The notes under the pieces: model-generated
What the model was told of the DNA's origin: nothing
What the model saw: the letters and a program-made list of their open reading frames with translations, nothing else
The model's database searches: none
Position numbers and translations under genes: made by a program
NCBI GenBank assembly: GCA_022823465.1
Contig: JAJEHX010000023.1
Location: forward strand, 1-64,000
Source of the DNA: Candidatus Latescibacterota bacterium
GTDB taxonomy: Bacteria; JAAXHH01
Length of the DNA stretch: 64,000 bases
Reading direction: 5' to 3'
Shown here: positions 6,985 to 21,323 of the stretch, one piece after another
Layout of the letters: every line of letters starts with the position of its first letter
Numbering within the stretch: the first letter of the stretch is position 1

Positions 6985-7931
6985 TCCGCAAGGCCGTGGT
7001 GCCCGTCGCGGGCCTGGGCACGCGGATGCTTCCGCTCACTCGTTCCGTTCCCAAGGAAATGCTGCCCCTGGGCCGCAAACCGGCGATCCATCGCGTGGTG
7101 GATGAACTGGCGGCCGCGGGGATCGAACGCATCCTCTTCGTGACGTCCGGCCATAAAAAAGCGATCGAGGAGTACTTCGAACCCGGCGGGCGGACGGCTG
7201 GGCCGCGTGGAGGGCGCCAGTCGAGCGAACCGCACCGTGATCCGCGCGGTCCAGACGAGCCGAACTATACCGGCCCGCACCGGGAACGACGCGGTCGGGA
7301 TCCTTCGGATCAGACCGGACCGCCCGCGCTCGACTATTCGTTCGTCCGACAGGACGTCCCGGCCGGCAACGGAGACGCCGTGCGGTTGGGCGCGTCCTTC
7401 GCGGGATCGGACCCCTTCGTCGTAGCGTGGGGCGATGCCGTCATCCGGTCGTCGACGGAAGGCCGCGTGCTGCGGCGCATGATGGAGACCCACTTGAAGG
7501 AGGACGCCGCCTGCACTATCGCGGTGGAATACGTACCCGAAGAGAAGGTGTCTCGATACGGTATCGTACGACCCAGATACGAATCCGGATCGGCCTTCCC
7601 GGTCGATGATATCGTGGAGAAGCCGTCCCTGGAAAGTGCGCCCAGCCGCTACGCCGTGTCGGCCCGGTACATATGCGGTCCCGGCATCTTCCCGGTGCTG
7701 GAGGCGACGCCGCAGGGCCGGAACGGCGAACTGTGGCTTGCCGACGCCATCCGCAACCTGCTCCGGCAGGGCGGGACGGTATGGAGCGTTCCCCTCGGGG
7801 CCGGTAGCAGGCGCTACGACATCGGCACGCCCCTGACCTACTGGGAAGCCTTTGCGGATTACGCCCTGGAAGACGAGACGGACGGAACGGCCTTTCGGGA
7901 CCTCCTGCAAAGGCGGTTGAACAGTTCATGA
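6981..7931 (+). CDS. galU: UTP-glucose-1-phosphate uridylyltransferase-like nucleotidyltransferase
   Basis: This protein would make UDP-glucose from UTP and glucose-1-phosphate. The 316 residues begin with the nucleotidyltransferase signature VVPVAGLGTRMLPLTRSVPK, followed by the GalU-type EMLPLGRKPAIHRVVDELAAAG. Later family segments are DIVEKPSLESAPS, GRNGELWLADAI and RRYDIGTPLTYWEAF. It is odd between residues 69 and 112, where GalU normally has a helical insertion: the sequence is Arg/Gly/Pro/Asp-rich (EPGGRTAGPRGGRQSSEPHR, then DPSDQTGPPALDYSF). The usual GLGHAV reads GNGDAV. It may use a different sugar phosphate. It overlaps eda by four bases. Confidence 0.8.
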   Translation: MIRKAVVPVAGLGTRMLPLTRSVPKEMLPLGRKPAIHRVVDELAAAGIERILFVTSGHKKAIEEYFEPGGRTAGPRGGRQSSEPHRDPRGPDEPNYTGPHRERRGRDPSDQTGPPALDYSFVRQDVPAGNGDAVRLGASFAGSDPFVVAWGDAVIRSSTEGRVLRRMMETHLKEDAACTIAVEYVPEEKVSRYGIVRPRYESGSAFPVDDIVEKPSLESAPSRYAVSARYICGPGIFPVLEATPQGRNGELWLADAIRNLLRQGGTVWSVPLGAGSRRYDIGTPLTYWEAFADYALEDETDGTAFRDLLQRRLNSS

Positions 7932-8004
7932 TCGGCGCACGCATACCGCGTACAATTCGGTGCGCATACCGCCAGGAACAACTCGTGCCACTCGGCTCAC
8001 GCCA

Positions 8005-9000
8005 ATGGGAGTCCAATTGAACGGGACCGTGACCGCATCCGCGCCCGGCCGCGTCGGCATAGTAGGCAATCCGACCGACATGTACGGCGGCAGCGTGATC
8101 TCTTGTTCGACTAAGGAAAGGGCGAGGGTCGTGATCCGGCCGGCGGACCGCCTGGTCCTGGACGCCGGGGCCGAACAGCGGGTCGTTTCGACGCCGGACG
8201 ACCTGGCCACGAGGAAAGATATTTTCGATATCGCCCGGGTCGCGCTGGCCGGAACCGAATCGACGGATCTGCGCGCCCAGGTATCCTGGTCGACCGATAT
8301 CCCCTTCCGGGCAGGCCTTTCGGGATCGACCGCGCTGCTCGTGTCCATGGTCGCCGGCCTGCTCGCCTTCCGCGGCATCCGCCACGGTCCCTACCACCTG
8401 GCGGAACTCGTCCGCAGGATCGAGTACCGGAACCTGACTTTCTGCGGATACCAGGACGCCTACATGTGCACTTTCGGCGGGTTGCATTACATGGATTTCA
8501 GGGGGAAGGAGTTTCACCTGGAATACGGCACCGATCCTCTCGCCACCATGGAGCCGATGCCGGCGGCTGCGGCCCTGCCGGTCGTCGTGGTCATCACGGG
8601 AGGCCAGCGTGTTTCCGGCGGCGTGCATACCCCCTTGAGGGAAAGGTGGCTGGCCGGTGAATCCGAAGTGGTCGAAGCGTACAGGACCATCGCCTCCCTG
8701 GCACGGGAAGGCAAGAAAGCGATCCTCGAAAACCGGTTAGACAGGCTGGGAGCACTGATGAACGAAAACCAGGCGCTGACGCGGGAACTCGGCGGATCCA
8801 ATCCGGAGGACGACCGTTTCATTGAACTCGCACGAGAGGCTGGCGCGTCCGGCGCCAAGCTCGCGGGCAGCAGCGGCGCCATCGTCGCGCTTCACGAATC
8901 ACCCCGCGAACTGGCCAGGGCCATGATAGAGGCCGGCGCCGCGGGCATTCTCGAACCCGCCCCGGGACCGGGACTCGCAATCGAACAAGAAGACTCTTAG
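8005..9000 (+). CDS. GHMP-family sugar kinase (glucuronokinase/galactokinase-like)
   Basis: This is an ATP-dependent small-molecule kinase of the GHMP fold. The N-terminal motif SAPGRVGIVGNPTDMYGG is the substrate-side signature, PFRAGLSGSTALLVSM is the ATP-binding GHMP motif 2, and SGAKLAGSSGAIVAL is motif 3. The start is uncertain: GTG 7960 (the ORF track) and ATG 8005 have no Shine-Dalgarno, while TTG 8017 has GGGAG five bases upstream. The conserved domain begins just after all three. Sitting between a GalU-like pyrophosphorylase and LarA, it may phosphorylate a sugar or uronic acid that GalU then activates; that pairing is inference. Confidence 0.82.
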   Translation: MGVQLNGTVTASAPGRVGIVGNPTDMYGGSVISCSTKERARVVIRPADRLVLDAGAEQRVVSTPDDLATRKDIFDIARVALAGTESTDLRAQVSWSTDIPFRAGLSGSTALLVSMVAGLLAFRGIRHGPYHLAELVRRIEYRNLTFCGYQDAYMCTFGGLHYMDFRGKEFHLEYGTDPLATMEPMPAAAALPVVVVITGGQRVSGGVHTPLRERWLAGESEVVEAYRTIASLAREGKKAILENRLDRLGALMNENQALTRELGGSNPEDDRFIELAREAGASGAKLAGSSGAIVALHESPRELARAMIEAGAAGILEPAPGPGLAIEQEDS

Positions 9001-11620: not shown

Positions 11621-11708
<88 letters not shown>

Positions 11709-11840
11709 CCTTTTATGAAGAAACATCTCAATAGCATACCCTTGAGCAAATCTTGGACGGAAAAGGGACAGTTTCACTGTAACCTTCGGTAAAGTTCGAG
11801 AAGTGTTTTCAGATGGCGAAGGCAGGGAAAGGGAAAAGTG

Positions 11841-12142
11841 ATGCCAATAAGTAGTTTTAGGGTGACCTTCCCTGAGGATGACTGCTCTTTTCGTCTATTT
11901 TATGCCAAAAATACGTTCATAAAAGCTTTGGAACACATAGGTTGGATAAAGTTGAAGGATTGAGAATAAAGGGCTGTAAATCCCGCATCACTGTTAAAGG
12001 GCGGACTTGGTTTGGTACTCGTAAAACAGTCAAGTCGGCCAGAACGTACTGCATAGTTGTGGGGATAAGCAATCGGCAGAAGAAAAGATATCTTGAGAAG
12101 GTGTGTGAAGAACTGGATATAAAAATAAATGTCGAACTCTAA
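11841..12142 (+). pseudogene. Small hypothetical gene split by a frameshift
   Basis: An ORF starts at ATG 11841 with AGGGAAA upstream (MPISSFRVTFPEDDCSFRLF) and stops at TGA 11961 after 40 codons. A second ORF, listed in the track from TTG 11942, continues in the -1 frame (LDKVEGLRIKGCKSRITVKG ... CEELDIKINVEL) to 12142. The two overlap and join into a coherent basic protein of about 100 residues. I do not recognise a family. A single-base indel around 11940-11960 explains the pair; sequencing error is possible. It is the first gene of the island. Confidence 0.45.
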
Positions 12143-12628
12143 CTCTCATCACACTTAGTATAGTTTCAGCGCACTGGGTTTCCTCTACCAGCCACCTAAG
12201 GGTTTGTGTTTTACCTCGTAGTTTACCCCCCACGTACGGACGCTCCAGATTCATTTCCCCATTTGCAAACGCAGAAACCTCATTAATAAATGTCTTACAC
12301 GACACAATTGACGTCATTGTACTTGTACCCTTGACCGATACACAGAGTAAAGCTTCCTTCTGATCGAGGAGGTCAACATAGACTCATTTCAAACTGACAC
12401 GCCATTCTGGTAATATCGTGTCTATCCTGATAACATATGTGAGGAATGTCGACAGTCAGAACGATGTCTGCGCTGTAAACTCTTGTGGGCAGTTGATAGA
12501 GTCGCTAAATTACGTAATACTGGTGGTTTGCACTCCTTCTGTAGTATAGTACCTGGTCCTCCTTGCCTAGTGTGAAGATTAGGAAATCCAAGGACGATAT
12601 GACCTTTCGATCACACGTATAAGTCAAA
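12143..12628. other. 486-base gap in the island with a minus-strand ORF remnant
   Basis: No confident gene is present. The minus strand carries an ORF whose N-terminal part (12150-12317, MTSIVSCKTFINEVSAFANG then RPYVGGKLRGKTQTLRWLVE) reads like protein-coding sequence; its 3' part runs into the opposite-strand gene at 12142, so it looks like a truncated remnant. The remaining 300 bases are AT-rich and probably hold the promoter of the first methyltransferase gene; I could not pick one reliably. Confidence 0.3.
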
Positions 12629-13735
12629 ATGCAAGTAATCGATCTTTTTTGCGGTGCTGGTGGATTTGGTTTGGGTGCTAGCCGAGCCGGATTCGATGTA
12701 TCCGTATCGGTTGAAATTGATCCCCAAACGGTTTCAGTCCATCGTAAAAATCTTCCAAATTCAACGCTTTGGGAGAAAGATATTAATACTCTGTCGGGAG
12801 TGGAACTATTAAGTAATTTCGAACTCCAACATCGCGAAGTGGATGGTGTAATTGGGGGACCACCTTGTCAAGGGTTCAGCCTCATTGGACGTCGAAACGT
12901 TTGCGATCCGCGCAATCATTTATTCATTCGTTTTTTTGACATCGTAAGTGAAATAGTCCCGAAGTTTTTTTTGGCGGAGAATGTTCTAGGATTATTAAGC
13001 AAAAAAAACTCACATATCGTCAGAGAAGCACTATCTAGGGTGGAAGGAAAGTATGAGGTCTTCTCACCAATTAGACTTGTGGCTAGCAAATACGGTGTTC
13101 CCACAACCCGTGAAAGGGTGTTTTTTTTTGGATACTTGCAGGATGAGTTAAATCGGATTCAGCCTACAGACTTTATACCCGAAAATATAAAAACGGTGCG
13201 TGTAAAGGATGCATTGAAAGGATTGCCCAAAACAATAGATCCGTATTGGATTCGAGAAGAGGATGGATGGAGAAAGATTAAAAAAGTAATAACAGGGAAT
13301 TTTGGTTCGAAGCTTTACAGTCATATACCCAATGGAGTTGGAGATGGGGACGCAATTAGACGGTTCATGAAACATAGTGAGGTGTCAGGATGTCTCGGTA
13401 CTCGCCATACTGAGTTAGTGTTGCAAAGGTATTCCAAAATCGAACCAGGCAGGTGTGACCCTGTTTCAAAAAGCTATCGTCTAGATAACAACGGTTTTTG
13501 CCCAACACTTAGAGCTGGCACTACAAAGGAAATGGGTAGCTACCAAGCAGTTCGTCCGTTACATCCTTCCGAAAATCGAGTAATAACGCCACGAGAAGCT
13601 GCAAGACTTCAGGGATATCCAGATTGGTTTCAGTTTCACCCCACGAAATGGCATAGTTTCAGGCAAATTGGTAATAGCGTCAGCCCTATTCTTGCCGAAC
13701 ATATATTGCGAGTTATCAGAAGGGCACTCGATTGA
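12629..13735 (+). CDS. DNA (cytosine-5-)-methyltransferase, first copy
   Basis: This is a C5-cytosine methyltransferase of 368 residues using S-adenosylmethionine. Motifs appear in order: I (VIDLFCGAGGFGLGASRAGF), IV with the catalytic Cys (GGPPCQGFSLIGRR), VI (FLAENVLGLL), VIII (YGVPTTRERVFFFGY) and IX-X (ITPREAARLQGYPDWF, QIGNSVSPILAEHILR). The variable region between VIII and IX (about 180-300) sets the target site, which cannot be read. It heads the plus-strand operon with the GHKL ATPase and the 15152 gene; the ATPase starts 11 bases after its stop. Base composition is much richer in AT than the backbone. Confidence 0.95.
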   Translation: MQVIDLFCGAGGFGLGASRAGFDVSVSVEIDPQTVSVHRKNLPNSTLWEKDINTLSGVELLSNFELQHREVDGVIGGPPCQGFSLIGRRNVCDPRNHLFIRFFDIVSEIVPKFFLAENVLGLLSKKNSHIVREALSRVEGKYEVFSPIRLVASKYGVPTTRERVFFFGYLQDELNRIQPTDFIPENIKTVRVKDALKGLPKTIDPYWIREEDGWRKIKKVITGNFGSKLYSHIPNGVGDGDAIRRFMKHSEVSGCLGTRHTELVLQRYSKIEPGRCDPVSKSYRLDNNGFCPTLRAGTTKEMGSYQAVRPLHPSENRVITPREAARLQGYPDWFQFHPTKWHSFRQIGNSVSPILAEHILRVIRRALD

Positions 13736-13745
13736 GGGGGATCTA

Positions 13746-15155
13746 ATGGACAATTTAAAGTACACGACAGTTGATGCGACGCCCGTGAAGTCCTTTTTTG
13801 TCGATATGCTTACCAGAGACATCGAATTGGACGATGCGATCTTAGATCTGCTAGATAACTGTGTCGATGGGATACTACGTCTCAGGGGCGAGAGTATCGG
13901 AGAAACTCCGTATGAGGGTTTTGAGGCTGAGATTCGATTTGATAAAGACTCGTTTTTAATATCGGATAACTGCGGGGGTATTCCTTGGAGCTTTCATGAC
14001 TACGCTTTTCGAATGGGTAAAGATAGTCAGGAAAGAGATAATGATTTGCCAACAGTTGGAGTTTATGGAATTGGGATGAAAAGGGCGATTTTTAAGATAG
14101 GAAGACAGTGTCTTATATCAACTCAGCATGATCAGGATCAGTATGAAGTAGAAATATCTCCAGAATGGATTGCGGATCAAGCTAACTGGTCAATACCAGT
14201 ACATGCAGCAGCACGCCGCGACAGGAGCGAAGATGGGACGACTATTGTCGTAGATAAATTAAACGAGAATATCGCTAAACATTTTACCTCCGATATCGAG
14301 AATTTCACACGTGAGTTAGTAAGGAAAATCGAGACACACTATGCGTTTATCATCGCTAAAGGGTTTAAAGTAACTGTAAATGGTAATGCAGTTGAACCTA
14401 GACCCACAAAGTTGATCTTCGTCGAAACAAACAATGGAAACAAACCTGTAATCAGACCGTTTATTTACAAAACTGAAGTCGACGACGTTAAGGTATACTT
14501 AACTGTCGGGTTTACAAGACCTATACCCACTCAAGAAGAAATCAACGACGAGCAGGAAGAAAAAAGGTACTCATCCATGGACGCAGGGTGGACTGTGGTC
14601 TGCAATGATCGCGCAGTTTTGTATTGTGATCGTTCGGAACTAACTGGATGGGGTGAGGCTGGAGTGCCGCGATATCATACTCAGTTTATCGCAATTTCCG
14701 GTATTGTAGAATTCCAAAGTAACGACGCATCAAAACTTCCTACCACGACCACTAAACGCGGGGTTGACGCATCTTCATATCTCTATCTACAGGTTAAGAA
14801 CAAAATGAGAGAGGGAATGGCGATGTTTACAAACTTTACAAATAAATGGAAGGGGCGAGGGGATGAATCCAAAAAGTTCATAGATTCAGGTACCCCGCAA
14901 CCGTTAGACCAAACAAAAGTGTTGGCTGAAAGACTTACGATGAATCCAGTTCATTCTGGACTGAGAGGAGAGCAATTCAAGCCTAAGCTCCCTATGCCCA
15001 AACCTGAACCAACATCAAGAAAACGGATTTCGTTTTTAAAGAAATTAGAAGAAATCCAAACTGTTCAACGATACCTATTTGGCGAGGAGGAAGTTACGGC
15101 TTCTCAAGTCGGAGAAAAGAGTTTCGATCAGATGCTGAGAGAGGCTCAGCAATGA
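13746..15155 (+). CDS. GHKL ATPase (HATPase_c_3/MORC-like) in a restriction-type operon
   Basis: This is a 469-residue protein with an N-terminal ATP-binding GHKL module. The N-box is DDAILDLLDNCVDGI, with Asp where the catalytic Glu of MutL/GyrB/MORC stands; the G1 box is FLISDNCGGIP; the G2 region is GVYGIGMKRAIFKIG. A second half (about 230-400) may be the S5-like transducer, and the C-terminus is polar (PKLPMPKPEPTSRKR). I start at ATG 13746 (GAGGGGG upstream) instead of the track's longer frame. MORC/MutL-type ATPases linked to C5-methyltransferases and nucleases are a predicted class of restriction system. It overlaps the next gene in ATGA. Confidence 0.82.
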   Translation: MDNLKYTTVDATPVKSFFVDMLTRDIELDDAILDLLDNCVDGILRLRGESIGETPYEGFEAEIRFDKDSFLISDNCGGIPWSFHDYAFRMGKDSQERDNDLPTVGVYGIGMKRAIFKIGRQCLISTQHDQDQYEVEISPEWIADQANWSIPVHAAARRDRSEDGTTIVVDKLNENIAKHFTSDIENFTRELVRKIETHYAFIIAKGFKVTVNGNAVEPRPTKLIFVETNNGNKPVIRPFIYKTEVDDVKVYLTVGFTRPIPTQEEINDEQEEKRYSSMDAGWTVVCNDRAVLYCDRSELTGWGEAGVPRYHTQFIAISGIVEFQSNDASKLPTTTTKRGVDASSYLYLQVKNKMREGMAMFTNFTNKWKGRGDESKKFIDSGTPQPLDQTKVLAERLTMNPVHSGLRGEQFKPKLPMPKPEPTSRKRISFLKKLEEIQTVQRYLFGEEEVTASQVGEKSFDQMLREAQQ

Positions 15156-16081
15156 AACACCCTCCGTACCACCTTAGAGTAAATAAAGCGATAGACAGGT
15201 TTCTACTCGTAGAACTCGTCAATATACTTGGAAAGCAAGTTAAACTATCTGACTACACTTACTATGGGTTTGGGGGGCCGTTTCTGGAGGACTGCAAGCT
15301 CATCCATGATCAATGTCCAGAGATCAAGATCGTTTCAATTGAAAAAAACACGGAGACATTCAAAAGACAACAGTTTCATCGATTTTCAAAAAAACTCGAG
15401 TTAAGACAAGAGGATTTCACGAGTTTTATATCGGATTTCTCAAGCACAGGCGGAGAGGTGTTCTGGCTTGATTACACCAATTTGAGATATGCTCATTTCG
15501 ATGTATTCATGAGCGTTCTGGAAAGAATATCGGAAAACAGCATAGTAAAAATTACCATTCCAGCAGAATACAATGGCTTAGATTGGGAGCGTTTCCAGCG
15601 AGATTACAATCAAGTCTTACCTGCTTCGTGTAATGAGACATCCATATCGAGACCCTTACCATTTATTAAATTGCTTCTGGAAATGCTACAGATCGCATCA
15701 CAACAAGCCCTTCCAGCGGCGAGAGAGGAGATATTCCAAATTTTGGATTCGTCGCATTACAACGACCAAAGTAAAATGCTGAGCGTCACGGGCATAGTCT
15801 GCAACAAGAGCCAATCTTCACAGGTCCTAGATTGGTTCAAAAACGACTGTTTTCTGAATCCGAGTTGGGATAGTCCTCGCAGAATAGACGTTCCTATTCT
15901 AAGCATTAAGGAAAGAATGCTTCTTGAGAGGTATTTACCAACTAATGCAAAAACAGGGCGTTACATTTCGCAGGTATTGGGATATCGGATTGACGATACA
16001 AACGAAGCAAATATCGAGAAACTGAAGCAGTATGAAGGGTTTTACCAATATTATCCATACTTTGCTCGGGTCTCGATCTAA
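15152..16081 (+). CDS. Rossmann/methyltransferase-like protein partner of the GHKL ATPase
   Basis: I do not recognise a named family. The 309-residue protein has a region resembling a Rossmann-fold methyltransferase: YTYYGFGGPFLEDCKLIHDQ (residues about 28-47) could be a glycine-rich motif I, EIKIVSIEKNTETFKRQQFH an acidic-loop motif II, and GEVFWLDYTN a motif IV-like strand. No classic NPPY or PC catalytic motif is visible, so it may bind a nucleotide or SAM without methylating DNA. Its ATG overlaps the ATPase stop by four bases, which implies a joint function. It is the last plus-strand gene before the convergent minus-strand operon. Confidence 0.6.
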   Translation: MKHPPYHLRVNKAIDRFLLVELVNILGKQVKLSDYTYYGFGGPFLEDCKLIHDQCPEIKIVSIEKNTETFKRQQFHRFSKKLELRQEDFTSFISDFSSTGGEVFWLDYTNLRYAHFDVFMSVLERISENSIVKITIPAEYNGLDWERFQRDYNQVLPASCNETSISRPLPFIKLLLEMLQIASQQALPAAREEIFQILDSSHYNDQSKMLSVTGIVCNKSQSSQVLDWFKNDCFLNPSWDSPRRIDVPILSIKERMLLERYLPTNAKTGRYISQVLGYRIDDTNEANIEKLKQYEGFYQYYPYFARVSI

Positions 16082-16164
16082 CCTACCGTTGATACCTTTT
16101 CGATGATGTCGTAGGCAAGATACTTGCGTTCGTTCAATCTAACGGCGTCAAGGATTAGACTCCA

Positions 16165-16917
16165 CTAAACAACCTCAATCCATGACGGCTCAAATCCGAC
16201 AGCATTCAATACGTTTTCCATTTGCAACTCTTCCGGTAGTCCTTTAATCCTGAATCTGGTGGCACTCGCAGGAATCGGCTCGATTAATGTCAACTGACTA
16301 CCGTGCGGTTGCCAGGTAAACCGGTGGGTCTCTCCCTCAAATCCCTCGAGATTGCCCCTTGCGTTTTGACGCCACGTATAGCTGTTAACCGCAAAGGGAA
16401 CTATAGGTCTTTCGAACATGGTAAACTCTCTTGTTTCCATGTTTCGAACAAACACCATGAGCCGAACGTCAGAGTAACGTCCACGTGATTCGGAAATCCG
16501 GTTGTTTTGTATTTCGAGAACTATGTTTCCAGTGGATTGAATATCAGCTGTAGGGTTGTCTACACCTGCTGAGTATGTAGGACTATTCCTTCCAATAATC
16601 AGCCGTAACGTTCTTTGTCTTTCGGGGCCCCTGCTCACCGTGGTAAGCGCGTGCGGCCTAGAGTTCTTTACAGTTTTTACGGACCAGCAGCAAGCGTTCC
16701 ACGTCACATCAGCGATTCCTAATGGAGCATTTAGTGCGGTACCATCGACCGCTTCGGCAAAGATCCGACTGAATTCGTTGCCGTCTACGTCCGATTGCCC
16801 CACAACTCGCCTGTACACCAACCGTTTGCCCAACTCTTCGATTACAGAAGGTGGAAAGCCGTTCATGGGATACGGTTCAGAAACCGTGTATCCAGATCGT
16901 GTTCTTATATTTGCCAT
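16165..16917 (-). CDS. Hypothetical protein, candidate restriction endonuclease
   Basis: This is a 250-residue protein of unnamed family, last in the minus-strand dcm-vsr-HNH operon. Near residue 70 it has GIADVTWNACCWSVKTVKNS: an Asp followed about ten residues later by SxK, matching the spacing of a PD-(D/E)xK nuclease core with Ser in the Glu position. This is suggestive only. The later part (ISESRGRYSDVRLMVFVRNM, EFTMFERPIVPFAVNSYTWR) could be a DNA-recognition region. I prefer ATG 16917 (MANIRTRSG) over the TTG 16938 of the track. A methyltransferase, Vsr and HNH protein upstream make a restriction function plausible. Confidence 0.55.
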   Translation of the reverse strand: MANIRTRSGYTVSEPYPMNGFPPSVIEELGKRLVYRRVVGQSDVDGNEFSRIFAEAVDGTALNAPLGIADVTWNACCWSVKTVKNSRPHALTTVSRGPERQRTLRLIIGRNSPTYSAGVDNPTADIQSTGNIVLEIQNNRISESRGRYSDVRLMVFVRNMETREFTMFERPIVPFAVNSYTWRQNARGNLEGFEGETHRFTWQPHGSQLTLIEPIPASATRFRIKGLPEELQMENVLNAVGFEPSWIEVV

Positions 16918-16976
16918 TTTAGTAAGTTGAGCTTGCAATCCTAAAATTCAAAACAATGGAACAATACTATTGTGTT

Positions 16977-17747
16977 TTAGACTGTTCCCGACCAATCACT
17001 CTGATCTTCGTCCCATACTACCTCAGTAATCAAATGTTCTAGAAGAATGGACCTTACCCGCGTTCCCTGATCGACCTTGTAACGATACACACCTTCTTGA
17101 ACTACAATCCATCCATTTTGCAAATCGTGTCCTTCGATTGCGCGGATCATGGCTCTACTGCCAACTTCGGGCCAGCCAACCAATCCAGACTCCATTCTGA
17201 AGAAACGGTCTACTTGTTCTTGATCAAAGTTTTCTTGCATAGTAGCCCAAGCAGAAACTGGACAACCAACCACCTCGTTAATATCACCCAGTTCGTAATA
17301 GCCATGCCCTCGTGCATTCTTTATTATAACTCGTTGTATCCTTTCAAATTCCGGAGCCCAGACCATTCGTTCTTCGATGCCCAAATCTAAGCATGTCTGT
17401 ATGTATCTAGATTGGTCGATTCTATCTCTTAGACCTTCGTTAGTCTTAAATGAATTTGCCGCACTTGGAAGAACTTGATCATCCGGCTTCGTAGATCCCG
17501 ATATTACCGCGGACAAAAACGCTGCGAAGTACTCTTCGTCTAAAGCGAATTGCTCATTACAACCTCGACATGCCTTAATAGTCGGTAGGTCAGGTGGGTA
17601 TGGCTTCTTCAACAGACTCTTTGACGGCACGTGATCGTTGGTAGGGTCCGAAACTCCTTGTTCGCAATATACACAATACCCTCTCAGCCTTTCGTCTGTA
17701 AACTCACGGATTTGTTTCACCAGATAATACCTATAGTGTATCGGCAA
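16977..17747 (-). CDS. HNH-type endonuclease domain protein
   Basis: This is a 256-residue protein with an N-terminal zinc-binding HNH-like module. CVYCEQG (residues 25-31) and ACRGCNEQF (about 59-67) give a CxxC/CxxC pair, and DPTNDHVPSKSLL between them supplies the DH dipeptide of the HNH core. The rest (about 90-256) is not recognisable. It starts 21 bases after vsr ends on the minus strand, inside the operon of the second methyltransferase. It may be the restriction nuclease itself or an accessory nuclease. Confidence 0.7.
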   Translation of the reverse strand: MPIHYRYYLVKQIREFTDERLRGYCVYCEQGVSDPTNDHVPSKSLLKKPYPPDLPTIKACRGCNEQFALDEEYFAAFLSAVISGSTKPDDQVLPSAANSFKTNEGLRDRIDQSRYIQTCLDLGIEERMVWAPEFERIQRVIIKNARGHGYYELGDINEVVGCPVSAWATMQENFDQEQVDRFFRMESGLVGWPEVGSRAMIRAIEGHDLQNGWIVVQEGVYRYKVDQGTRVRSILLEHLITEVVWDEDQSDWSGTV

Positions 17748-17768
17748 TCGGCCATTCCTGAATTCTCA

Positions 17769-18254
17769 TCAAATTTGCTTAACATGTCGTCCTACGAGAT
17801 TTACGACGGACAGAATCACATCGTAGAATACGGATAGTCTTGATCTGAGGTTTGTCCTGTGTCTACCGATCATGTCGAAATCAAACGTAAAATCCTTGCG
17901 TTTTAAATCGTGTTCCCAGATACGAATTGCATTCCATTGGATGTTCTTGTAATAGGTATTTACCTTTTTGTCCCTTTTTCTATTGCGTTCGATTTTAAGA
18001 GTCCAGTATTCAGTTCTGGTGGAAGGTATGCGACAGTGTTTTTTGCACCCATGCCAAAAACATGAATCGATGAAAATCACCGTCTTGTGTTTTGGTAGAA
18101 CGATGTCCGGCTTACCATAATACTTGGATGAGTTTTTAAGGTATCTATATCCCCGCTGCCAAAGTTCTTTACGAAATGCCACCTCGATTTTACTGTCTTT
18201 ACTTTTAATTCGAGACATGATTTCGCTGCGTTTCTTCTTTGAAACTGTATCCAT
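17769..18254 (-). CDS. vsr: Very short patch repair endonuclease
   Basis: Vsr nicks DNA 5' of T in T:G mismatches that arise by deamination of 5-methylcytosine. The 161-residue protein begins with the typical RSEIMSRIKSKDSKIE and carries the catalytic Asp in YGKPDIVLPKHKTVIFID, the zinc/active-site HGCKKHC of SCFWHGCKKHC, and the later KIERNRKRDKKVNTYYKNIQW. It is encoded next to the second methyltransferase gene, whose product would create the lesions it repairs. The tail after residue 125 is not typical of the family. Confidence 0.93.
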   Translation of the reverse strand: MDTVSKKKRSEIMSRIKSKDSKIEVAFRKELWQRGYRYLKNSSKYYGKPDIVLPKHKTVIFIDSCFWHGCKKHCRIPSTRTEYWTLKIERNRKRDKKVNTYYKNIQWNAIRIWEHDLKRKDFTFDFDMIGRHRTNLRSRLSVFYDVILSVVNLVGRHVKQI

Positions 18255-18354
18255 AGCGAAAAGTCTCGCAAACGCATCAAATCCAATCGCAAACCCACTT
18301 TTACGGAAAAGACTCTTCGAATAAATCGACCCAGGTAATCGTTATAGTGAATAA

Positions 18355-19365
18355 CTAATGGGCGTGAATCCTATCCGACTGCTCGTTTCGGTCAAACAAT
18401 TGGCTCTGGGAAAGTCTTCTTACAGGACCTTCCTCCATTGCCTGTATCATGGATTTAGCCACAGCTTCAATCTTGGGAATGACAACGCTGTTCCCCGCTT
18501 GTTTCCTTACCTGCGCGACCGGGACCACGATTTTGAAAGAGTCCGGGAACCCTTGGAGCCTTAACATTTCTCGAGGCGTGAATCTACGTTCGCCATTCAC
18601 GGTCACGTAGTTATAAGACCCCTCCGCTCTCAGAGCACAAGTGAACGGATGAATGCCGATGTTTCCACTCTTGTTTTCGTGTAATACGACCGGACGATGC
18701 GTGACTCTTTTGTTTTGCTCTTTTAGTTTACGTTCGAGTTTAGAACGGAAGTATTCAGTCAAAAAGTGTCGTTTGTCTATCTGGGCTTCAGGTTCAAGTA
18801 CATCAGATAACGATTTCGAATCCGAACCTTTTGTTGGAAACTCAAATGGGAAATCCCTGTTGAACCCAACTAGTATTATGCGTTCTCTCTTCTGCGGAAC
18901 ACCGAAATCAAGACCATTTAGTACTTTATAGTGTACGAAATACCCCAATGCTACCAAATGGTCCAATATGACCTTGAGGGTTCTCCCCTTGTCATGCGTG
19001 GTTAACTGCTTTACGTTTTCCAACAAAAACGCCTTGGGTCTTTTCGCTTTCAAGATCCTTTCTATGTCAAAAAACAAGGTGCCTCTGGTGTCCGTAAATC
19101 CATGCCGGTTCCCGATAATACTGAATGCCTGGCACGGGAAGCCTCCGGTTAATATGTCGTGATTCGGCACCTTAGATGCGTCTATTTGGGTTATATCTCC
19201 ATGAGGTTTCTCTCCGAAATTGGCTTTGTACATCATTTGACACTGTTCATTCCATTCGGAGGTAAACACACATTTACCACCGATCCTTTCGAAGGCGATG
19301 CGAATTCCGCCTATGCCGGCGAACAAGTCTATAAAGGTAAATCTACTGTTGTTTCCGTTAGTCAT
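18355..19365 (-). CDS. DNA (cytosine-5-)-methyltransferase, second copy
   Basis: This second C5-cytosine methyltransferase has 336 residues. Motif I is FTFIDLFAGIGGIRIAFERIG, motif IV GGFPCQAFSIIGNR with the catalytic Cys, motif VI FLLENVKQL, motif VIII FGVPQKRERIILVGF, and motifs IX-X FTPREMLRLQGFPDSF and RKQAGNSVVIPKIEAV. It is only distantly like the first copy, so the target is probably different. I start at ATG 19365 and not TTG 19404, because the duplicate fragment at 21019 also begins there. It leads the minus-strand operon with vsr, the HNH gene and the candidate nuclease. Confidence 0.95.
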   Translation of the reverse strand: MTNGNNSRFTFIDLFAGIGGIRIAFERIGGKCVFTSEWNEQCQMMYKANFGEKPHGDITQIDASKVPNHDILTGGFPCQAFSIIGNRHGFTDTRGTLFFDIERILKAKRPKAFLLENVKQLTTHDKGRTLKVILDHLVALGYFVHYKVLNGLDFGVPQKRERIILVGFNRDFPFEFPTKGSDSKSLSDVLEPEAQIDKRHFLTEYFRSKLERKLKEQNKRVTHRPVVLHENKSGNIGIHPFTCALRAEGSYNYVTVNGERRFTPREMLRLQGFPDSFKIVVPVAQVRKQAGNSVVIPKIEAVAKSMIQAMEEGPVRRLSQSQLFDRNEQSDRIHAH

Positions 19366-19620
19366 TTCTGAACAAGCGTCCTTTCTGACTCCGCGATAGG
19401 CCAACGAAGGTTCTCTTTTGGTGTTGTTTTGTATGTGTTCATACTAAGTGCAGATCTCAATCGAAGCAAGTGAAAGGATAATCGTCGTTTACGATGTAAA
19501 AACACTTGATTAAGGGAATCTGGACGATGCTTTGTTGTTCCCTGATTCAAGTATAACTTGATAAGTCGTTCTATCGTGGATTCGGCACCTTCCCTCCAAC
19601 AAAGGTATAGTGTTGCAAAC

Positions 19621-19956
19621 ATGTCGGATTCTGTTGAAGAAATAAAAAAACACAATAGGGACCTGCATGGATACAGTGGAGCGCTGCTGGTCGTAGTAGA
19701 TAATGCACTGTGGGGAGCAAATATCGTAACATTCGGGCTTGCGACCCTTCTTGTTAGTCTACTCGCCTTTGTGTTCACCGGATTTGGTGTGTTTCTGGTT
19801 CAGAAGTTCCTCTCGGAAGATAGAACCGGTGTAGCTCTGGCGAAGGGATTTGTAACAGGTGTAATGGCAGGAGTTCCTACAGGCGTTGTAGGAACCGTGG
19901 GAGGAATTTACATTTTGAGTAAGGCGGGTATTCGGGCCATTCGCAGTAGAAACTGA
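19621..19956 (+). CDS. Small membrane protein of unknown function
   Basis: This is a 111-residue protein starting at ATG 19621. The N-terminus is polar (MSDSVEEIKKHNRDLHGY), followed by two or three hydrophobic segments: ALLVVVDNALWGANIV, TFGLATLLVSLLAFVFTGFG, and a glycine-rich one, GFVTGVMAGVPTGVVGTVGG. It ends in a basic tail (RAIRSRN). I do not recognise a family. It is divergent from the second methyltransferase, separated by about 255 bases. A degraded copy of its C-terminal half lies at 21096-21230. It could be a membrane-acting effector of the island; that is speculation. Confidence 0.55.
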   Translation: MSDSVEEIKKHNRDLHGYSGALLVVVDNALWGANIVTFGLATLLVSLLAFVFTGFGVFLVQKFLSEDRTGVALAKGFVTGVMAGVPTGVVGTVGGIYILSKAGIRAIRSRN

Positions 19957-19976
19957 CCGTAATTACAGCTTCCGCG

Positions 19977-20756
19977 TTATACGAACTTGTCCTTTCCAGA
20001 CCCCGAGGACACAACCAATCGTTTTGTCAATTCTGCCCGGTAGCGGTTGATCCATTGCGTGTTGAGTTCGTCAGCCAGACGCCTTTGACGAGTCTTGATC
20101 GGGCGTCCGGGCGGTAGCTTGAGGCCGAGGAATTCAAGGATTTCACAGGCTACACCGACCGGGTCGGCGTCAAGGTCTTCATAACGCACCATGTACGGCT
20201 GAATCCCAACGGAATCAAACCACGCCCGCCAGGCCGAATTGTGCTCTTCAATCATCTGCACAAACTTGCAGATTTGATCGAAGTCGAATCGTGGTTCTTG
20301 TTCCGCCTGTTTCGACTCCTCCTGATCGGTCTGGTGCCAGACATTGGTTTGCTCGGCTCGGTGCCACGACACAGCCTGCGCCAGCACATCGTCGCGATGC
20401 AGATAGATAAAGTCTGTATGGCCGAACGCTTGGTTCAACAGGTCTAAATCGCCACCAGCGAGAGTAGGAAAGACGGTAGCCAACCTGTCGACCAGATAGT
20501 CCATAGTTCCCCACATAATCCTGGCGGCAAACACTCCGTTTTCGGTCCTGCCCGCGGCAAGGGCAACTCGAACGAATTCGGAAAACTCAAAGACCCCATC
20601 GGACGAGCGGCCGATGTCCCATCGGGCAGCCCACAGTTGCTCGTCGGGTTGGCGGAAGTACGACTCAGGTTGCCCCGCGACTCTCGTGGACGCCATCAAT
20701 CCGCACAGCAAGGTACTGCCTGTGCGCGGAGTGGCGCATATCAAGTACGAATCCAT
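19977..20756 (-). CDS. Stf0-type sulfotransferase
   Basis: This is a PAPS-dependent sulfotransferase of the Stf0/NodH-like family, 259 residues, which would sulfate a sugar or lipid headgroup. The 5'-phosphosulfate loop is at the very N-terminus (YLICATPRTGSTLLCGLMAS) and the 3'-phosphate strand-loop is FIYLHRDDVLAQAVSWHRA near residue 140. The C-terminal MVRYEDLDADPVGVACEILE is also typical. The start is ATG 20756; an in-frame ATG at 20765 is equally possible. Its base composition is richer in GC than the methyltransferase genes next to it, so it may have arrived separately. Confidence 0.88.
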   Translation of the reverse strand: MDSYLICATPRTGSTLLCGLMASTRVAGQPESYFRQPDEQLWAARWDIGRSSDGVFEFSEFVRVALAAGRTENGVFAARIMWGTMDYLVDRLATVFPTLAGGDLDLLNQAFGHTDFIYLHRDDVLAQAVSWHRAEQTNVWHQTDQEESKQAEQEPRFDFDQICKFVQMIEEHNSAWRAWFDSVGIQPYMVRYEDLDADPVGVACEILEFLGLKLPPGRPIKTRQRRLADELNTQWINRYRAELTKRLVVSSGSGKDKFV

Positions 20757-20905
20757 GTGTCCCATCCGGAATAGGCTTTCCTGACTGCTTCTTGATTTCC
20801 TGAATCTGTCATTTCGTAATACCTCCAACCGGATGCAGTTTTTCGACCCTGTTTGGAGTTGGTTCTCGCTAAAATGGCATCACGCAATAACTGAGGTGAA
20901 TATAA

Positions 20906-21019
20906 TCTCTGGAGCTCAAACACACGTGTACTACCGGACCATTCGAAGGCGACGCGATTCCAGTCGATTCCGACAAACGGGTCAGTAAAGGTGAAATTAC
21001 TGTTGTTTCTACCCGTCAT
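20906..21019 (-). pseudogene. Decayed 5' fragment of a duplicated C5-methyltransferase gene
   Basis: Reading the minus strand from ATG 21019 gives MTGRNNSNFTFTDPFVGIDW and then NRVAFEWSGSTRVFELQRL. This aligns without gaps to the start of the intact methyltransferase at 19365 (MTNGNNSRFTFIDLFAGIGG IRIAFERIGGKCVFTSEW). The SAM-binding DLFAGIGG is ruined to DPFVGIDW, and similarity ends after about 38 codons. Upstream bases also match. The track's 151-residue ORF 20741-21196 merely runs through this remnant. Confidence 0.75.
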
Positions 21020-21095
21020 TTTTGTTAAATTTGCCCATCTGACTCTACGGTTGGACAAAGCGATTTGCTTTGGGTGAAACCACGTAGAGCAGAGG

Positions 21096-21230
21096 ATGTT
21101 TCGGCGCGGCTCTGTGTGGGGATTCGTCTCTGGTGTTATAGCGGGAGTGCTGCCAGGCATAGTTGGTAACATCAGGAGGATTTGTATTCCGGGCAAGGCA
21201 GGAATCGGACCTGGACTACGGAGGGCATGA
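21096..21230 (+). pseudogene. Decayed 3' fragment of the small membrane protein gene
   Basis: The plus-strand frame ending at TGA 21228-21230 reads WGFVSGVIAGVLPGIVGNIR and ends KAGIGPGLRRA. This matches the end of the protein encoded at 19621-19956 (KGFVTGVMAGVPTGVVGTVG, KAGIRAIRSRN). A short ATG ORF from 21096 survives. With the methyltransferase fragment, in the same divergent orientation, it is the second half of a partial duplication with an internal loss of about 380 bases. The rest of the 20757-21237 gap shows nothing else. Confidence 0.7.
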
Positions 21231-21237
21231 ACACCTG

Positions 21238-21323
21238 GGAGAGGTGCGAGAGCGGTTGAATCGGCACGCCTGGAGAGCGTGTGTTCACCATGTGGACCGT
21301 GGGTTCGAATCCCACCCTCTCCG
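21238..21323 (+). tRNA. tRNA-Ser (anticodon GGA)
   Basis: This class II tRNA has acceptor GGAGAGG/CCTCTCC, discriminator G, no encoded CCA, anticodon stem CACGC/GCGTG with loop CTGGAGA, a long variable arm, and T arm GTGGGTTCGAATCCCAC. It closes the accessory island on the right, eight bases after the membrane-protein remnant. It shares its 3' 28 bases with the tRNA-Ser(CGA) at 11621. Confidence 0.96.
21296..21323 (+). repeat. 28-base direct repeat, right copy (3' end of tRNA-Ser)
   Basis: This is identical to 11678-11705. The pair brackets all the AT-rich accessory genes. No integrase or transposase gene is present between the copies, so any integration event that used them has lost its enzyme or was driven in trans. 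Confidence 0.5.

Follow-up and report, generated by a model that had tools for sequence, protein, structure and literature searches.

Bacterial MORC ATPases were predicted by Iyer, Abhiman and Aravind in 2008 (PMC2292703) to take part in restriction systems and to be the source of the eukaryotic MORC silencing proteins. In the passages of that paper covered here, the MORC/paraMORC operons encode an ATPase composed of GHKL and S5 domains with the MORC motif, mostly accompanied by an SFII helicase; their neighbours are DNA methyltransferases, Vsr, HNH and SFII helicases, and they are found on mobile islands. Related arrangements are the DNMT/HEF_HK/Response_reg_2 operons (PMC8011034), with a C5 methyltransferase gene upstream of the GHKL gene, a fixed downstream partner and Vsr and HNH_2 nearby, and the BbrUII/HgiDII GHKL-type Type II enzymes (NF050001), which also combine a C5 methyltransferase with a GHKL protein. 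The locus compared with them here lies in the window, meaning the whole analysed stretch of 64,000 nucleotides (positions 1 to 64,000 of contig JAJEHX010000023.1 from a Candidatus Latescibacterota bacterium). It is an island between two tRNA-Ser genes and holds two independent modules, a predicted Type II restriction-modification (R-M) system on the minus strand and, on the plus strand, a cassette of a C5 methyltransferase (dcm1), a putative MORC-type GHKL ATPase and a Methyltransf_35 protein (MT35). These two convergent methylation operons and their gene content had been recognised in the initial annotation, and the family matches confirm them.

The plus-strand cassette consists of the following genes:
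12629..13735, plus strand: dcm1, C5-cytosine DNA methyltransferase (PF00145, E=4.9e-62; TIGR00675 over cut-off)
13746..15155, plus strand: GHKL ATPase, predicted MORC type, 469 residues from the ATG at 13746 (PF13589; PHROG 20521, function unknown)
15152..16081, plus strand: MT35, Methyltransf_35 with a predicted class I methyltransferase fold (PF20553, E=1.5e-56; AlphaFold2 model)

The GHKL and MT35 genes overlap by 4 bp (ATGA), and MT35 reaches 192.5 bits against PF20553, for which the Pfam gathering threshold is 27. Counted as matches over the cut-off, this family is rare, being present in 4 of 398 Pseudomonadota genomes, in 3/395 and 3/288 genomes of two other phyla and in 1/16 of the window's phylum. 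In all 11 of these genomes the MT35 gene lies directly downstream of a GHKL gene and has the same orientation. The same order was found in 8 further loci (a Microvirga plasmid, a Sinorhizobium plasmid with an insertion element between the two genes, three viral contigs, the filamentous Pseudomonas phage PfAC20 and two Escherichia coli prophage types), making 19 loci in all. On viral contigs, single-sequence scans for MT35 and for X, the endonuclease candidate of the minus operon, were empty, and the matches came from alignment queries. When the 398 Pseudomonadota genomes were searched with a GHKL profile, the top four matches were exactly the four genomes with PF20553. In fifth place, G329 has a longer GHKL next to a dcm gene; this protein lacks the MORC motif, and no MT35 accompanies it. 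The locus (L117 5562-8531), with its dcm1-like gene and 557-residue GHKL, may represent a two-gene form in which a C-terminal domain has been fused.

Distances between GHKL proteins follow those between MT35 proteins (Mantel r=0.82, p<=5e-5, n=16) but show no correlation with those between the dcm proteins (r=0.27, p=0.23, n=9). GHKL-MT35 is therefore the fixed core, an obligate pair, and the DNA methyltransferase is exchangeable. The latter is of the C5 type in 11 loci (homologues of dcm1 next to the pair elsewhere are 40-54% identical to it), of the N6/N4 type in L070, L079, L080 and L081, and a large MmeI-like enzyme in L062 and in two DISARM loci. The initial annotation had tied the partner genes of both operons to the methyltransferases, and this linkage stands: a DNA methyltransferase gene adjoins 18 of the 19 loci in which GHKL and MT35 are paired, and X co-occurs with dcm2-type methyltransferases, every locus of X except L052 lying beside a DNA methyltransferase gene.

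The motif GhXhhpXXRhl within the S5 domain unifies prokaryotic and eukaryotic MORCs, as stated in the covered part of Iyer et al. 2008 (PMC2292703). The window GHKL carries GWTVVCNDRAV at residue 281, which fits this motif, so the connection to the MORC and R-M literature drawn in the initial annotation is supported. A strict match was observed for 17 of the 19 MT35-paired GHKLs as against 0.4% of shuffled sequences, and the motif is absent from both BbrUII-type GHKLs tested, unlike the window protein. The Bergerat motifs DLLDN, DNCGGI and YGIGMKRA are present together with the TTKR lysine; of the four ATP-binding motifs of MORCs, the N-box and the G1 and G2 boxes were located along with this lysine, the N-box having Asp in place of the canonical Glu throughout. 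Against PDB sequences the GHKL profile places topoisomerase VI B (E 0.0016) ahead of MORC2/MORC3 (E 0.05-0.09), and the proposed assignment to MORC rests on the S5 motif; phmmer searches of the PDB with GHKL, MT35 and X gave nothing useful. Similarity to the BbrUII/HgiDII enzymes is weak and N-terminal (E=2.7e-5), the window GHKL reaching 22.9 bits over residues 119-244, without the C-terminal part of the model, against the 550-bit cut-off of NF050001.

The AlphaFold2 model of MT35 (pLDDT 88) has a class I methyltransferase fold. Its best structural match is the tRNA methyltransferase Trm1 (3axs, Z 16.3 over 220 residues in VIA-align), followed by RNA methyltransferases at Z 14-15; many methyltransferases score 13-14, so the fold does not reveal the target. 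Invariant positions are W105, D107, Y203 and D205 and the N-terminal YxLR..K. MT35 is, on this model, a predicted methyltransferase-fold protein. It was also considered as a hidden nuclease, an idea rejected on the same model, in which no extra nuclease domain was seen.

The nature of this partner separates the cassette from the described operons. Methyltransf_35 is not mentioned in the passages of PMC2292703 covered here, and the minimal cassette has neither the helicase usual in those operons nor a nuclease; in the DNMT/HEF_HK operons the partner is a response-regulator-like domain, whereas here it is the methyltransferase fold of PF20553. The earlier statement that the partner genes lie outside named systems holds in so far as the window GHKL, MT35 and X, as well as the E. 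coli GHKL and MT35, had no match in PADLOC-DB 2.0.0 (the PfAC20 GHKL matched only MzaB, at 0.001); 15152-16081 is not an orphan, this gene being a member of PF20553. Literature searches found no paper with PF20553, and product names led to no account of the trio. The main text of Rousset et al. 2022 (PMC9122126) contains no methylase, MTase, GHKL or HATPase, and its supplementary table of 169 systems may list the trio unnamed. The link of MORC to R-M was thus predicted in 2008 and the superfamilies are known, while no description of the obligate MORC-MT35 pair, of the stand-alone trio or of their placement in DISARM and the P2 slot was found in the literature covered.

By analogy with the GHKL clamps of MutL and MORC, the GHKL-MT35 pair most likely responds to DNA without the mark of its partner methyltransferase and triggers a response. 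In this scheme dcm1 would mark self DNA, and the MORC-type ATPase with its obligate partner would form the sensing and effector unit; ATP-driven dimerisation of GHKL would clamp DNA lacking the mark and switch the response on. MT35 may be the effector or a sequence reader, its nearest solved folds being RNA and tRNA methyltransferases. In larger versions the same pair is built into helicase/nuclease systems including DISARM, where nucleases or helicases would execute the response.

Several such larger versions were read. GHKL-MT35 adjoins vsr in L067, an HNH gene in L068 and both in L069; in L062 it lies beside vsr, a PLD-SNF2 helicase gene and a methyltransferase gene, and in L070 and L081 beside helicase genes. 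In L035 (a Microvirga terrae plasmid) and L078 (G582) it is located inside class 1 DISARM, between the MmeI-type methyltransferase gene and drmA. The window island has none of drmA, drmB, drmC and drmD, and so lacks the drmA-drmB-drmC core. The Vsr and/or HNH_2 genes directly beside the pair in L067, L068, L069, L062 and the DISARM loci L035 and L078, like the MORC/paraMORC operons with Vsr and HNH in the covered passages of PMC2292703, are consistent with GHKL-MT35 being a MutL-like switch that activates a Vsr or HNH nuclease nearby or elsewhere, in which case the HNH and Vsr proteins of the window would serve both operons. Yet neither gene adjoins the cassette in L082, L083, L106, PfAC20 or the P2 prophages of E. 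coli, and a recruited nuclease is regarded as possible though rather unlikely. In L078 (913-19828) the DISARM operon is followed downstream by a full-length BbrUII/HgiDII-type GHKL restriction enzyme gene and vsr.

The trio occurs without any adjoining recognised nuclease or helicase gene in L082, L083, L106 (a prophage-like contig), PfAC20 and E. coli. In PfAC20 (L108 268-3711), ORF1-ORF3 encode GHKL, Methyltransf_35 and a C5 methyltransferase, the same three genes as in the window; the authors name the methyltransferase alone and treat it as an incomplete defence system (PMC11878078). As the trio is conserved, the PfAC20 system suggests a complete unit. ORF4 was rejected as a fourth component and looks spurious. 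Full-length trios were found in 47 complete E. coli genomes, 2 with one cassette type and 45 with another, counts that are exact for these two types within 220 megablast matches; the GHKLs of the two types are 63% identical. In each of the three E. coli regions read, the trio is carried by a P2-like prophage and stands between its portal gene and its replication-endonuclease gene, a position that houses tin, old and several validated systems (Vassallo et al., PMC9519451) and belongs to the P2 hotspot with its 169 systems (Rousset et al. 2022, PMC9122126). The E. coli trio thus occupies an established anti-phage slot.

Given that the minimal sets combine two proteins of methyltransferase fold without a recognised nuclease, and that several of the carriers are phages or prophages, the cassette might act by modification only: dcm1, the MORC ATPase and MT35 would modify, package or epigenetically regulate the carrier DNA and protect it from restriction by other systems instead of attacking foreign DNA. 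However, it is also chromosomal in distant bacteria, is built into DISARM operons and stands in the P2 slot reported for anti-phage systems, and we consider this explanation unlikely. Equally doubtful is a nuclease-free, methylation-gated immunity in which the MORC ATPase would sense unmarked DNA and activate MT35 as an effector that would disable phage or cell through modification of DNA or tRNA, without cutting. These readings of the executor (recruited nuclease, MT35, modification only) all concern the plus operon and partly overlap with the favoured explanation, which leaves the executor open.

The minus-strand operon is composed of four genes, listed here by coordinate:
16165..16917, minus strand: X, predicted PD-(D/E)XK Type II restriction endonuclease, partner of dcm2 (AlphaFold2, VIA-align)
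16977..17747, minus strand: HNH-like nuclease candidate with CxxC...DHVPSK...CxxCN (plasmid homologues; weak Pfam match)
17769..18254, minus strand: vsr, endonuclease of very short patch repair (TIGR00632, over cut-off at 119.5 bits)
18355..19404, minus strand: dcm2, C5-cytosine DNA methyltransferase, M.HhaI-like (PF00145; TIGR00675 over cut-off)

The closest solved relative of dcm2 is M.HhaI (E=2e-73). X had no Pfam, NCBIfam, PADLOC or PHROG match, and its profile gave nothing useful against the PDB. Homologues were found on genome contigs, in 7 of 395 Bacteroidota-type genomes sampled, on 14 viral contigs and in one faecal phage record. In almost every intact locus a dcm2-like gene is located directly upstream of X, mostly overlapping it and 47-58% identical where scored; in L101/L102 it is adjacent and divergent, and the Enterovibrio copy L052 is the only locus without an adjacent DNA methyltransferase gene. 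In the window the vsr and HNH genes separate dcm2 from X, and vsr follows dcm-X in L085, L086, L088 and L102. The divergence of X tracks that of dcm2 (Mantel r=0.39, p=5e-5, n=18). Decaying dcm-X copies were also seen, with stop codons in L051 (~7500-8700) and with X split by a transposase gene in L054 (4738-8425).

The structure of X was modelled by AlphaFold2 from an 18-sequence alignment (pLDDT 89.6). The top VIA-align rows are 3ndh, which we take to be ThaI (Z 8.6 over 172 residues), and HinP1I (2fkc; 7.5 and 6.8), followed by NhoI and Eco15I domains, NaeI, DpnI, EcoRV and SwaI; the best Foldseek E is only 0.011. With ThaI and HinP1I the fold is common (Z 7.5-8.6) and sequence similarity is not detectable, and dcm2 is M.HhaI-like. 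D70 and K81 are invariant within the segment GLADV...WSVK. Structure prediction for the two partner genes, a check proposed in the initial annotation, thus yielded a class I methyltransferase fold for 15152-16081 and a PD-(D/E)XK fold for 16165-16917, and X is predicted to represent an uncatalogued endonuclease family. We read the minus operon as a Type II R-M system predicted to cleave unmethylated sites. The annotation had allowed for a match to a fully described system; the operon is indeed of a known kind, yet its endonuclease family is uncatalogued. Here dcm2 would methylate C5 at its own site, X would cut that site when unmethylated, and Vsr would repair the T:G mismatches that arise from deaminated 5-methylcytosine.

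The matches of the HNH-like protein are weak (PF14279 E=0.07, PtuB E=0.03), and its plasmid homologues share CxxC, DHVP(S/T)K and CxxCN. Plasmids of alphaproteobacteria and of Pantoea carry relatives in a variety of defence contexts; two of these relatives adjoin dcm and the gene of an ATP-binding protein, which in L055 matches the BbrUII model. On the small Rhodobacterales plasmids L055 and L057 relatives are located by a recombinase gene, between a dcm+GHKL pair and a dcm-vsr set. In the window operon the HNH gene would have been picked up and is probably an acquired extra.

The borders of the island are formed by two tRNA genes:
11621..11708, plus strand: tRNA-Ser (CGA), left hotspot border (ARAGORN)
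21238..21323, plus strand: tRNA-Ser (GGA), right hotspot border (ARAGORN)

The guanine plus cytosine content of the island is ~43% (41-46% over most of its length, between 12 and 20 kb) as against ~64% for the genome. For the hotspot comparison 16 genomes of the window's phylum were used, 12 of them from one genus, and both flanks are present in nearly all. In six congeners (G002, G003, G006, G008, G010, G012) the tRNA-Ser pair is ~70 bp apart and the site is empty. Five others carry different cargo at the same site: a leucine-rich-repeat protein gene in G007, G009 and G011, a carotenoid-oxygenase-like gene with a PadR-like regulator in G004, and a different dcm-vsr, R-M-like set in G005 (L043 2896-5710). 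The latter comprises a Vsr 73% identical to that of the window, another C5 methyltransferase and a convergent 340-residue protein with no family match. Since the same site is empty in some congeners and otherwise filled in others, the island is an insert that varies between strains, at a tRNA-Ser integration hotspot shared across the genus, and the low-GC island between tRNA-Ser genes, as first described, is upheld by ARAGORN, base composition and the empty sites. No integrase-like gene was found within the insert, and no end repeats besides the two tRNA genes themselves; a tyrosine-recombinase island with its own integrase was rejected on these grounds.

Taken together, it is probable that the insert is hotspot cargo with two independent self/non-self modules, a Type II R-M system and a MORC cassette, working as proposed above. 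The basis of this reading is observed: gene order, obligate pairing, co-divergence, the exchangeable methyltransferase, folds, motifs and the anti-phage slot. From it we infer an anti-phage function, ATP-driven clamping, a target for MT35 and a disabling of DNA or cell. The following points weigh against the reading: (i) the GHKL N-box has Asp at the position of the canonical catalytic Glu in 20 of 20 sequences tested, which may lower ATPase activity; (ii) the three-gene sets contain no recognised nuclease; there, neighbours were annotated by reference-set similarity and Pfam was run for selected genes, so that an unrecognised small nuclease is possible; (iii) DNA methyltransferases borne by prophages can serve phage self-protection instead; (iv) X has Ser at the usual acidic position of (D/E)XK, the residue two before K81 being Ser, Gly or Ala among its homologues; (v) the HNH gene was found in no other dcm-X locus read. 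HinP1I is likewise atypical at the acidic position. The single composite defence locus suggested at first, with interdependent operons, has the convergent arrangement within one hotspot insert in its favour but is very improbable and was rejected, since each module is found without the other: homologues of X accompany dcm2-type methyltransferases in the absence of GHKL and MT35, five genomes with X having no GHKL of this family, no other GHKL-MT35 locus contains X, and a congener holds a different R-M set at the same tRNA-Ser site.

As the trio is native to P2-like prophages of E. coli, the MORC prediction of 2008 can be tested with standard phages in a common laboratory host. The analysis also offers a candidate function for Methyltransf_35 and for PHROGs 20521/19983, a perhaps complete unit in place of a published 'incomplete' Pf-phage system, an undescribed accessory pair, GHKL-MT35, in some DISARM loci, and a predicted fold for the uncatalogued restriction-endonuclease family of X.

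The remaining genes of the island, for which no link to either defence operon was seen, are:
19558-19956: small hydrophobic protein gene
19977-20828: Stf0-type sulfotransferase gene (PF09037)

The hotspot gene of the congeners G007 (L038), G011 (L039) and G009 (L041) has up to ~1,050 codons and encodes leucine-rich and Big-like repeats. At the right edge of the window island, positions 20918-21058 are left over from the 5' end of a gene resembling dcm2 (70% nucleotide identity to 19264-19404); a second copy of the dcm2-type system may therefore once have been located there.

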